Assembly (NCBI GenBank): GCA_902587615.1 | Contig: CACILY010000010.1 | Coordinates: 1-36,240 of the forward strand | DNA: 36,240 nt | Source of the DNA: an uncultured Prochlorococcus sp. | Lineage (GTDB): Bacteria; Cyanobacteriota; Cyanobacteriia; PCC-6307; Cyanobiaceae | Reading direction: 5' to 3' | Part shown: in pieces, positions 4,347-24,701 of the stretch | Numbering within the stretch: position 1 is the first letter of the stretch | Layout: each line of letters begins with the position of its first letter | Notes under the pieces: generated by a model | Databases searched by the model: none | Told to the model about the DNA's origin: nothing | Seen by the model: the letters and a program-made list of their open reading frames with translations, nothing else | Position numbers and translations under genes: made by a program

Positions 4347-5531
4347 TTAACAATATTTTCTGGCTAGATATTGAGCTTGACCCTTCCGATCAGAACTGAT
4401 CGACTGCCTCTTAAATCCATCGTCTTTAAGATCAAAGGTTTTGCTGTAACAGTCAATAGTTAATTGCCGTTCTCTGAACCAACCTTCAGGTTTAGCTTGC
4501 CCCTGAAGAAGCAATGAATTAGCACAGGTTTCTTTACTCCCTTGTGAACAATTTATAACACCAATTACACCTGCAAAAATATTGCCGGCAATTTGTCGAC
4601 CTCTTTCGATTTCAAACCTATACACATCAAAATATAAGTTTCTACTTCTAATTCCATAGTTTTTTCCAATCTTTTTTGAGAACGTCTCATTAGTATCTTG
4701 AAGCCATTCTCCAGCAAAATTTCCTACACCCATCGATTCATGATTGAAGCCATTCATGAAAGCATTAAATCTATTCGTAGGATTACCATGTTCTGAGAGT
4801 AAATGAAAGTCTCCTACACTAAAGAATAGATTTGCACCTTTAGTAAAACCTTCTAAAGGCATGAGTTGATTAGATATGACATACGCTAAATACTTTCCAG
4901 CCTTCCAATCTGCCTCATTCTCCTCATTGTCAAGATATTGCTCCCTACCAATATGATGATTTACATGATGCCCAAATTCATGAGATAAAATAGCTAAGCT
5001 AAGATAACTTAAATTAAGATTTTTTTTATCGGTGAACCCCTTGATTAGAGGCTTTACATTAAGCGTAATTTCGTTCGATTCAGGGCAATAAATATTTGGG
5101 TATTGGGTAACTAGTTTTTTACCACATCCAATAAGGCGGCCATCGTCTAATCGTAAAATTGGAGTGGGGAAAGTTAATCTTTTTTTATTAGCACGTTCAA
5201 GCCAATATTGATTCATTAACTCAAAATGAAGTCTCAAAAACTCTTTGTCGGCAATGTCATTACTTGGTTCTCCATAACTATAAAGATTATCTATCAAGGG
5301 TTGAGTCACATCACTTGAAGGAATATCTATCAAGGGTTGAGTCACATCACTTGAAGGAATATCACTTTTATCAATTTTTGGTTTGATCCGAGAATAGTAA
5401 AGATAACAGTCTTTATAATCAATTCCGCTTCTTAACTTGCATTTGTTATGCGCACTTTTATTTAGCCCTTGAGCATTTAAAGTACCCAGGCTACTAAGTA
5501 AAGCTAAGAGTAACAGTAAGCTTTTTCTCAT
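4347..5531 (-). CDS. Secreted zinc metallopeptidase-like protein
   Basis: A 394-residue protein with a clear signal peptide (residues 1-20, ending LNAQ). HEFGH at 184-188, within LSLAILSHEFGHHVNHHIG, is a gluzincin HExxH zinc site, and ENEADWKAGKYLAY (204-217) fits the downstream third ligand. The HExGHHV...LG...ExxAD.xAG order resembles the neutral zinc metallopeptidase group of YpfJ. The C-terminal part has several Cys, suggesting disulfides in the periplasm. A linker at about 58-81 carries two identical 12-residue units IDIPSSDVTQPL from a perfect 36-bp DNA duplication. The natural substrate is unknown. Confidence 0.75.
   Translation of the reverse strand: MRKSLLLLLALLSSLGTLNAQGLNKSAHNKCKLRSGIDYKDCYLYYSRIKPKIDKSDIPSSDVTQPLIDIPSSDVTQPLIDNLYSYGEPSNDIADKEFLRLHFELMNQYWLERANKKRLTFPTPILRLDDGRLIGCGKKLVTQYPNIYCPESNEITLNVKPLIKGFTDKKNLNLSYLSLAILSHEFGHHVNHHIGREQYLDNEENEADWKAGKYLAYVISNQLMPLEGFTKGANLFFSVGDFHLLSEHGNPTNRFNAFMNGFNHESMGVGNFAGEWLQDTNETFSKKIGKNYGIRSRNLYFDVYRFEIERGRQIAGNIFAGVIGVINCSQGSKETCANSLLLQGQAKPEGWFRERQLTIDCYSKTFDLKDDGFKRQSISSDRKGQAQYLARKYC
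5289..5360. repeat. Perfect 36-bp tandem duplication
   Basis: Bases 5289-5324 and 5325-5360 are identical. The unit is a multiple of three, so it adds 12 residues to the N-terminal linker of the metallopeptidase without breaking its frame. No base difference between copies suggests a recent event. Confidence 0.95.
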
Positions 5532-16170: not shown

Positions 16171-16407
16171 CAATTTAAATTTTTCTAGTTCCTTTTCTGT
16201 TTTTTGTATCTACAGCTAATGATTAGTTCGTCACCAAATAAGTCCCATTCACTTAATATTGCCACTTAACTTTTATTCTTTTTGTATAATTCCGGTGAAT
16301 TCTAGAACTTTATCCCGAGCTATCTAGGAGTAGCCATTTGGAAATCTGCCTATTTCCCCTTGACCTTAGATCTCTAAAAGTTGATTATTGCATTGAATAA
16401 GAGGTTA
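16171..16407. promoter_or_regulatory. Upstream region of the surface-protein genes
   Basis: About 235 bases between the terminator and the barrel gene. Includes TATAAT (16286-16291) as a possible -10, but no clear -35 at the right distance. Transcription of the two surface genes must start here. Confidence 0.35.
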
Positions 16408-17667
16408 ATGTTGAAATCTTACTTTTGGGAAAAGAACCTTATTTTCGCATTTGCTTTAATTGCTAGCTCGGTCGCTGTTGCAAATTCAAAGCCATTTAGT
16501 CCTTTAGAGATAAAATCAGAAGATTCAGGACAAGTTTTTACTGGTAGCTCTAAAGAAGTGGAATTTGAGAAAGAATTTGCAGTTAAAAAAAGTAAAAGTA
16601 ATACAAATTCCGCGAAGTGCAATTTATTTGAGGATCCTCGATCTGTTGATTGTATTGGACCTGAAAGTGCTTATGAACCTAATAATAACGTTGAAAAATG
16701 GGTGCAAAATGGGGCCATTTATTCCCAGCGTTTTGTCCCAATGCTAAACAATGACGCTCAATTTAGTGATTACACTGATGTGATGAAAAATGATGCAACG
16801 AGTTTTTTGGTTGCAGGAATACATAATTCTGGTAATGGGTATATAAATGATCAGATTCAAAGAATCCCTTTCTTTGCTCAAACTAGTCTTTCTATTACTG
16901 CAGGTGGTAGTGATGAAAGCGCAAGTGTTTCGGTTGATAGTTTGATGAAGCTTAAGGCTATTAATGATGATGAGGGTGATTTGAAAAGATTGTTGTTTTC
17001 ACAGGCTAAATACACTGGTAGTGGTGAGATGGATGGTTCAACAATAAATGTTGGTTTCGGTCTTAGAAATCGTCCTGATGACCAAACGATGTATGGAGGT
17101 AATGTTTTTTGGGATCATCGTATAGTGGAGAGTAGTCGCACTAGCCATAGTCGAATTGGTCTGGGAGGTGAGTATTTATGGAAGCATTTGGAATTGCGCA
17201 ACAACTGGTATATTGCAGCCACTGGAAAAAAAGATGTAACCGTTGATGGAGTCGATTACATAGATCGTGTTGTTCCTGGTTGGGATGTTGAAATTGGTTA
17301 TCGAATTCCTGAGTATCCTGAGCTAGGTGTATTTGTAAGAGGTTTTAATTGGGATTATCACCATACGCAGGACAATAATGGAGGAGAAGTCTCTTTGAAC
17401 TGGCAAGCTTCTAAACATGTCAATTTAGAAGCTTGGGTTTCTAATGAGTTGTCACCAACTTCTATCACAGTCAATGACGACTTACCTGGATTGGACGAAT
17501 ATTTTGTTGGTGTGAGAGTTAACTTCACAAGTCAACCTGTTGTTTTCGAGAAGAACAACTTTAAAGAAAATATTATCACTCAAATGACTCAGCCTGTTAG
17601 ACGTACTTATGATGTTCTAATTGAACGTTCTACTGGCGATTTTACTAATAGAGCTGAAGGCTCCTGA
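16408..17667 (+). CDS. Inverse-autotransporter-type beta-barrel protein (intimin/invasin-like), no passenger
   Basis: Signal peptide at 1-26 (ending SVAVANS) from the ATG at 16408; GAGG is only 3 bases before it, so the TTG at 16411 with 6-base spacing is an equally good start. After a linker, residues 130-390 show alternating strands with motifs of the inverse-autotransporter barrel: GGNVFWDHRI, SRIGLGGEYLWKHLELRNNW, and VVPGWDVEIGYRIPEYPELG. The C-terminal segment RRTYDVLIERSTGDF resembles the short conserved element after that barrel. Family proteins carry a large C-terminal passenger, but this one ends about 28 residues after the element. Probably an outer-membrane protein. Confidence 0.75.
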   Translation: MLKSYFWEKNLIFAFALIASSVAVANSKPFSPLEIKSEDSGQVFTGSSKEVEFEKEFAVKKSKSNTNSAKCNLFEDPRSVDCIGPESAYEPNNNVEKWVQNGAIYSQRFVPMLNNDAQFSDYTDVMKNDATSFLVAGIHNSGNGYINDQIQRIPFFAQTSLSITAGGSDESASVSVDSLMKLKAINDDEGDLKRLLFSQAKYTGSGEMDGSTINVGFGLRNRPDDQTMYGGNVFWDHRIVESSRTSHSRIGLGGEYLWKHLELRNNWYIAATGKKDVTVDGVDYIDRVVPGWDVEIGYRIPEYPELGVFVRGFNWDYHHTQDNNGGEVSLNWQASKHVNLEAWVSNELSPTSITVNDDLPGLDEYFVGVRVNFTSQPVVFEKNNFKENIITQMTQPVRRTYDVLIERSTGDFTNRAEGS

Positions 17668-17719
17668 TGCTAAGTCCATTTTCTTTCTTATTTCCATTAA
17701 CTTAATTGCTATTCAAAAC

Positions 17720-18634
17720 ATGAAATTAATTACAAAAGAAAACTTAAAAGTTGTTTTGGGATTGGGCTTTTCTGTAGGAGCTTGTTTATTGGCTCCTAAC
17801 AATGCTGCTAATGCAGAGGCTTGTTCAGGAAGTGTTACTGCTAATTGCTATATAACTCCAACTAGATATGTCATAAACGTTTATGAGATGGGACTTTGTT
17901 GGGAAGATCCTCTTAATGGAACATATCTAGATGGAGACGACAATATAAGAACCGATTCACTCATAGATGAGTCGACTTGTCAGGCTACATTTGTTTCACC
18001 TAACGGCGGAGGTGTGAAAGTTAATTTAGCTGTAGGGAGTGGTGAGCATGCTTTGACCGGTTTGGCTTTAAGACCATCAGTGGGAAGGTATTCATATGCT
18101 TATATCAAAATTGATAATACTTTTGGCATAGCAGGTTCTTATGACACAGGTTCTACCAAATATTGCTCAATTGGAACAGGAGATGTTACAAGTGCAGGAG
18201 GATGTACTGAATCTGCATGGGATGAAGATCTTTTAGATTTTAGTAATGGTAGAACGTGTAATAGCACTCCAGGAGATATTGAATTAGCTGGGTCAGAAGT
18301 ATTTACAACGGGTATAACTGGAACTATGAAAGCTGTACTAGCAAAGCCTTCAGGTACATATGGAAAATATGAAGACCCGTCGACAAAGGATGTCTTTAGA
18401 AAAGATAAGTACAATTCCGTTGGTACTTATGTTGGGGATACTTCATGTGGAAGCTCAACTAGGTTGTTTGGTGTCTTTAAGCCAGACCAACCTGTAGTCA
18501 TAAAAGAGAGCACAGAGGGCTTACATGTTAACTTCTCAATTACTGATAGAGGAATGACAGTTCTCCCAGATGGAAGTGGAGGCGTTAGTGGATTTTCTAG
18601 TGGACCATTTAGTCCATCCTTTAAGGTTTTCTAA
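17720..18634 (+). CDS. Secreted Cys-rich protein, likely partner of the barrel
   Basis: ATG at 17720, 52 bases after the barrel gene. Signal peptide 1-34 ends NNAANA. The mature protein of about 270 residues is beta-rich, Gly/Ser/Thr-rich and has at least eight Cys, probably in disulfides. TPTRYVINVYEMGLCWEDPL near its start resembles a group of secreted proteins of marine bacteria I recall only vaguely. The C-terminal FSSGPFSPSFKVF is aromatic. It may form the exposed partner of the passenger-less barrel or a pilus-like surface protein; both are inference. Confidence 0.6.
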   Translation: MKLITKENLKVVLGLGFSVGACLLAPNNAANAEACSGSVTANCYITPTRYVINVYEMGLCWEDPLNGTYLDGDDNIRTDSLIDESTCQATFVSPNGGGVKVNLAVGSGEHALTGLALRPSVGRYSYAYIKIDNTFGIAGSYDTGSTKYCSIGTGDVTSAGGCTESAWDEDLLDFSNGRTCNSTPGDIELAGSEVFTTGITGTMKAVLAKPSGTYGKYEDPSTKDVFRKDKYNSVGTYVGDTSCGSSTRLFGVFKPDQPVVIKESTEGLHVNFSITDRGMTVLPDGSGGVSGFSSGPFSPSFKVF

Positions 18635-20191: not shown

Positions 20192-20221
20192 GTGACAAAA
20201 GTTTCTTGAATCGAGTAGAAA
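20192..20221 (+). promoter_or_regulatory. Possible promoter of Yfr1
   Basis: GTGACA (20192-20197) and TAGAAA (20216-20221) are separated by 18 bases and would start a transcript near 20228, matching the expected short Yfr1. Weak match to the sigma-70 consensus. Confidence 0.45.
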
Positions 20222-20227
20222 GGAAAT

Positions 20228-20285
20228 ACGACACTCCTCACACAACTGTCGTTATTAGGTGCTACTCGATGAGGGCACCTTTTTT
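20228..20285 (+). ncRNA. yfr1: Yfr1 small regulatory RNA
   Basis: ACTCCTCACAC at 20233-20243 is exactly the ultraconserved 11-base motif of the cyanobacterial sRNA Yfr1, which pairs with ribosome-binding regions of target mRNAs and represses them. Here ACGACA (20229-20234) can pair with TGTCGT, bringing the motif into a loop. The 3' end is a terminator hairpin, AGGTGC (20257-20262) with GCACCT (20275-20280), plus a T run. The 5' end is estimated, not seen; an alternative longer 5' end near 20203 allows the weak stem TTTCT/AGAAA. Confidence 0.85.
20257..20285 (+). terminator. Terminator of Yfr1
   Basis: Stem AGGTGC/GCACCT, 12-base loop, followed by six T. Part of the Yfr1 transcript. Confidence 0.8.
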
Positions 20286-20325
20286 ATGGCTTGCAAAATA
20301 TCCAATTATAGGTAAAAATACCCTC

Positions 20326-20415
20326 AGTGAGGAGTTGAGATCCTCTGAGAAGTGGAAACAAGGAAACACGCTCTCAAGATTTCTTCAAAAAACCTGCTTT
20401 AGGGCAGGTTTTTTT
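20326..20415 (+). ncRNA. Yfr2-family small RNA (possibly Yfr10)
   Basis: GGAAACAAGGAAACA at 20354-20368 is the conserved loop motif of the Yfr2 family. It is presented by a stem of TGAGA (20346-20350) with TCTCA (20372-20376) plus GTG (20352-20354) with CAC (20367-20369). GTGAGGAGT (20327-20335) near the 5' end is perfectly complementary to nine bases of the Yfr1 motif (20233-20241), though it can also fold with TCCTC (20341-20345). A terminator ends it at about 20415. Family knowledge: Yfr2 RNAs are abundant and one role is titration of Yfr1; a Yfr2-type RNA next to Yfr1 is known from some picocyanobacteria. The 5' end is estimated from a possible -10 near 20313-20319. Confidence 0.8.
20387..20415 (+). 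terminator. Terminator of the Yfr2-type RNA
   Basis: AACCTGC (20391-20397) pairs with GCAGGTT (20404-20410), extended by A/T pairs, then T. Confidence 0.85.
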
Positions 20416-24540: not shown

Positions 24541-24612
<72 letters not shown>

Positions 24613-24619
24613 TTTTTTA

Positions 24620-24701
24620 TGGGCCGGGTTGGATTTGAACCAACGTAGGCAGCGCCAGCGGATTTACAGTCCGCCCCCATTAACCACTCGGGCACCGACC
24701 C
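24620..24701 (-). tRNA. tRNA-Tyr (GTA)
   Basis: 82 bases with a long variable arm (class II). Acceptor GGGTCGG pairs with CCGGCCC; anticodon loop CTGTAAA in stem GCGGA/TCCGC gives GTA. Transcribed ahead of tRNA-Thr, probably as one precursor. Confidence 0.96.

Follow-up and report, generated by a model that had tools for sequence, protein, structure and literature searches.

Two short RNA genes lie side by side in the window, a 36,240-nucleotide stretch of a contig from an uncultured Prochlorococcus sp., and a segment of the second is exactly complementary to part of the ultraconserved motif of the first. Which RNAs are these, and does the complementarity make one a regulator of the other? 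We consider it highly probable that yfr10 and yfr2 stand here in tandem, in a Prochlorococcus-type genome, as a gene pair in which Yfr2 would act as a sponge of Yfr10 and Yfr1 and the RNAs would neutralise each other. The source genome is 59.5% complete, with 59 contigs in a 1.10 Mb assembly.

Anatomy and identity of the two RNAs

The layout described by the first-pass annotation is borne out by the sequence (Table 1). ACTCCTCACAC occurs where it was placed and is the sole exact copy of this 11-mer in the whole 1.10 Mb assembly. The two RNAs had been put less than 50 bases apart; we found a gap of about 40 bases, with a hairpin and a T run ending each RNA, and the nine-base complement can be read directly from the sequence. 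The Yfr2 loop motif is also present, and the interval first given for it, 20354-20368, falls inside the actual 20352-20369. The terminator of the first RNA is visible in the fold; it was missed by the terminator scan because its stem is interrupted. A nine-base inverted repeat, ATCGAGTAG (20210-20218) and CTACTCGAT (in this terminator), lacks its full counterpart in relatives and was taken as chance.

Table 1. Features of the putative yfr10-yfr2 locus, in window coordinates
Feature	Position	Strand	Basis
Putative promoter of the Yfr10-type RNA: GTGACA (20192-20197), 18 bases, TAGAAA (20216-20221)	20192-20221	+	sequence
Yfr10-type small RNA (approximate; start inferred near 20228)	20226-20286	+	weak Rfam Yfr10 match 20226-20294, motif-loop hairpin
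Hairpin ACGACA (20228-20233) / TGTCGT (20247-20252), motif in loop	20228-20252	+	predicted fold
Yfr1/Yfr10 ultraconserved motif ACTCCTCACAC	20233-20243	+	sequence; PMC2190773, PMC2518516
Terminator of the Yfr10-type RNA: hairpin 20257-20280, T's 20280-20285	20257-20285	+	fold; similar hairpin in relatives
Putative Yfr2 promoter: TTGCAA (20291-20296), 17 bases, AAAAAT (20314-20319)	20291-20319	+	recurring strip
Yfr2-family (Cyano-1) small RNA	20321-20414	+	Rfam RF01701 match 20321-20387
Anti-motif GTGAGGAGT, exact reverse complement of 20233-20241	20327-20335	+	sequence; within Cyano-1 consensus
Conserved Yfr2 loop motif GTGGAAACAAGGAAACAC	20352-20369	+	sequence, Rfam
Yfr2 terminator, hairpin and T run	20387-20414	+	terminator scan

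The second RNA belongs to the Yfr2 family, with a score of 43.5 bits against the Cyano-1 covariance model (RF01701; cutoff 41), and it carries the loop GGAAACAAGGAAAC and the 5' anti-motif that characterise the family, from which it shows no notable difference.

The first RNA had been named Yfr1. Its exact 11-base ultraconserved motif, common to Yfr1, and its own terminator would suit a second, true Yfr1 in this genome, but it scores only 12.9 bits against the Rfam Yfr1 model (RF01116; cutoff 38), and a genuine Yfr1 lies elsewhere in the genome (contig C2:54032-54088, minus strand, 51.4 bits against the same cutoff). The published architectures also differ: the motif of Yfr1 is single-stranded between two stem-loops, and that of Yfr10 sits in a loop atop a stem (Lambrecht 2019, PMC6778093). 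In the window the two-stem architecture is absent and the motif is predicted in the apical loop of the ACGACA/TGTCGT stem, and the gene immediately precedes a yfr2 homologue, the arrangement known from high-light strains. A second true Yfr1 is therefore very improbable. Because of the apical-loop motif, a Yfr10 score higher than the Yfr1 score and the true yfr1 elsewhere, we call the first RNA Yfr10-type; it is no formal member of Rfam Yfr10 (RF02362), since its 22.1 bits lie below the cutoff of 43. Yfr10 is known to vary, its published conservation being confined to the motif. The motif of the genome's separate Yfr1 reads TTCTCCTCACAC, with TCTCCTCACAC in place of ACTCCTCACAC, the first A being replaced by T.

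Distribution of the tandem layout

We searched 400 family genomes from 59 genera for the pattern CTCCTCACAC-gap-GGAAACAAGGAAAC, with the reversed pattern as a control. Matches were found in 13 of the 400 genomes at gaps of 97-127, in 21 at 128-158 and in 90 at 159-189, and the control gave 0 matches at every gap class. The tandem order is thus present in 110/400 genomes and 17/59 genera, a union with overlaps counted by hand. Within the genus of the window, the tandem is present in one genome (G001), where the complement spans 13 bases, and another (G002) has a Yfr10 that adjoins none of its Yfr2 genes. We infer the clade of the window within Prochlorococcus, as we do the equation of genus g17 with the high-light clade and of g56 with a NATL-like clade.

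Genus g10 would match the low-light II/III group, described as lacking Yfr1 (Voss 2007; PMC6778093): Yfr1 was not found in any of the seven g10 genomes searched (E 0.1), three of which are at least 99% complete, and the tandem occurs in three of the seven, none of them among those three most complete genomes. What appears to be new relative to Steglich 2008 and Lambrecht 2019 is the tandem layout in lineages beyond the high-light strains, g10 included.

Single genomes can carry more than one copy. Contig C32 of genome G022 has two yfr10-yfr2 tandems about 3 kb apart (1330-1466 and 4551-4686), one of them without a closing stem around the motif, and contig C13 of G312 has four tandem matches. 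A possible phage-borne Yfr2 was also considered; the 16-base loop core was found in 20 viral contigs, none with the anti-motif in place in the flanks read or with CTCCTCACAC in the locus, and these were taken as chance.

Conservation of the anti-motif and of the stem

We compared 57 distinct tandem loci. In 33 of them GTGAGGAG is retained in the Yfr2 partner, and in 31 of these it is GTGAGGAGT; the complement, whose lack of conservation among neighbours would have spoken against the original proposal, is conserved. A further 22 have the high-light form GTGTGTAGGAG, in most cases opposite a motif lengthened to CACACAC; since the search fixed CTCCTCACAC, these counts do not bear on covariation within that core. 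The remaining two are one locus with GTGTGAAGGAG and one variant (G327 contig C24:1220-1376), whose Yfr2 has GTGATGAGG for the anti-motif next to an intact Yfr10 motif.

Yfr2 copies outside tandems also keep the complement segment, which makes it a family-wide Yfr2 trait, so any role of adjacency itself would be conjectural; the segment also appears in the Cyano-1 consensus. This bears on the view that the two RNAs are independent regulators and neighbours by chance, each with its own mRNA targets, and that their complementarity arises incidentally because one binds, and the other resembles, sequence of the ribosome-binding-site kind. Besides the non-tandem copies, the resemblance of GAGGAG to a ribosome-binding site and the hundreds of candidate targets that Yfr2 has of its own (PMC6778093) agree with such a view. 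It is opposed by the high-light lineages, which have changed on both sides, with a CACACAC motif and a GTGTGTAGGAG partner, and by MED4, where pairing and relief of repression were demonstrated (PMC6778093). We judge incidental pairing to be quite unlikely, and keep to the antagonistic yfr10-yfr2 pair.

The presentation of the motif is conserved as well. A stem of at least five pairs closes it in 56 of the 57 tandem loci, compared with 12% for shuffled flanks, a statistic to be read as support and not as a probability because related loci are not independent. The closing stems differ in sequence, as in CGACA/TGTCG, CGAGA/TCTCG, ACAGAAC/GTTCTGT and TCAGAAA/TTTCTGA.

Predicted pairing and the proposed switch

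An exact nine-base complement between two RNAs of such size has a chance expectation of about 0.03 by an arithmetic estimate. With the Yfr2 start at 20326, the predicted dimer pairs exactly on the two motifs at -9.7 kcal/mol, and changing UCCU to AAAA, as in the published mutant, abolishes the predicted duplex (-0.9 kcal/mol). The energy of -9.7 kcal/mol is only modestly unusual, being equalled in 18/400 shuffles of the first RNA (and in 1/400 of the second), and conservation across relatives carries the case. These values come from the dimer ensemble, which was used instead of a plain duplex prediction that gave a long site with an opening cost greater than its gain. The suggestion that the second RNA could be a sponge of the first is upheld; such a sponge has already been shown experimentally with the homologues from MED4 (PMC6778093).

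The anti-motif had further been proposed to fold into its own hairpin, whose opening might be a switch. This idea fared less well. The hairpin CCTC-AGT-GAGG uses bases 20322-20325, which probably lie upstream of the Yfr2 start site; it could form only if transcription began no later than 20322, and it was not found in relatives, which have CCCACCGTGAGG and similar sequences there. An alternative hairpin, GAGGA/TCCTC, is a competitor in the window, where the mean unpaired value is 0.52, and in several relatives, and in many other relatives the segment is predicted to be mostly open (unpaired 0.8-0.9). The folds do not support a conserved hairpin switch.

One transcript or two

Each RNA had also been assigned its own promoter. 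A consensus promoter scan called none at either expected site, whereas relatives repeatedly show promoter-like strips with comparable spacing: on the Yfr10-type side, several related loci have TTGAC-N18-TAGAA at a comparable offset, and on the Yfr2 side most short-spaced relatives have TTGNCA-N17-AANAAT at an unchanged spacing. The terminator half of the claim is upheld by sequence and fold, and the promoters are putative. Spacing to the candidate -10 box would put the Yfr2 start near 20326-20327; no published start sites for the yfr10-yfr2 pair were found in the literature consulted. The two terminators, together with the recurring strips, suggest separate units for the Yfr10-type RNA and Yfr2.

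Such separate units argue against a locus transcribed mainly as one read-through RNA, in which motif and anti-motif would pair internally to form an inactive precursor freed by processing. Within a joined transcript the predicted probability of this pairing approaches 1 for the window; among the 33 GTGAGGAG loci it is at least 0.94, with three exceptions. A 270-nt joint Yfr10-Yfr2 precursor has been reported in MED4 (PMC2518516). But the three exceptions, which are more widely spaced, pair poorly (0.05-0.62), and a short 78-nt Yfr10 also accumulates in MED4 (PMC2518516). A mainly read-through locus appears unlikely, and we prefer two separate RNAs.

A related idea is that outside the high-light clade, including the lineage in which Yfr1 was not found, yfr10-yfr2 might form a self-contained regulator with its output set by termination between the genes: read-through would give a self-paired, inactive RNA, and termination with use of the second promoter would give free Yfr10 and free Yfr2. 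We offer this as a doubtful conjecture.

Relation to known pairs and proposed mechanism

The interaction itself is already known, since it was predicted by Steglich 2008 and demonstrated by Lambrecht 2019. In MED4, Voss 2007 had already observed the motif ahead of Yfr2 and Yfr5, and Steglich 2008 (PMC2518516) described Yfr10, Yfr12 and Yfr18 as adjoining Yfr2, Yfr4 and Yfr5 there, with predicted pairing. Lambrecht 2019 (PMC6778093) found by pull-down, primer extension and a GFP reporter that Yfr2 binds Yfr1 and Yfr10 in MED4 and that it relieves Yfr1 repression of the reporter in E. coli; for high-light strains, the same paper places yfr10 ahead of yfr2. With the MED4 pairs Yfr10-Yfr2, Yfr12-Yfr4 and Yfr18-Yfr5 the window shares order, motif, anti-motif, apical loop and the antagonism to be expected (PMC2518516, PMC6778093). 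It differs in its shorter spacing (110 bases from CTCCTCACAC to GGAAAC, as compared to 159-189 in most high-light-type loci) and in a complement that is perfect over nine bases, whereas that of MED4 has a bulge.

Locus anatomy, conserved order, complementarity and the predicted apical loop were observed here, and expression, start sites and pairing in the source organism are presumed. The Yfr10-type RNA would present ACUCCUCAC in an exposed hairpin loop and bind target mRNAs like MED4 Yfr10. The Yfr2 complement GUGAGGAGU, close to the 5' end, would pair with this loop and take Yfr10 from its targets; Yfr2 may also pair with the separately encoded Yfr1 over at least 8 bases, and Yfr10 or Yfr1 would neutralise Yfr2 in return. 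Both the sponge effect and the mutual neutralisation are carried over from the published MED4 work. A known antagonistic sRNA pair is thereby extended from high-light strains with reported adjacency to further lineages, which offer natural variants (short or long spacing, perfect or bulged complement, Yfr1 present or missing) with which to ask whether the balance of the two RNAs is governed by adjacency and duplex strength.

Other features of the window

Elsewhere in the window, positions 16381-17667 (plus strand) encode a protein of 428 aa in which Pfam recognises an inverse autotransporter beta-domain (IAT_beta, E 1.4e-57). The ORF after it (17621-18634, 337 aa) matched nothing in Pfam at E 0.001. 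Two adjoining tRNA genes lie on the minus strand at 24541-24701, with Rfam scores of 72.1 and 57.8.
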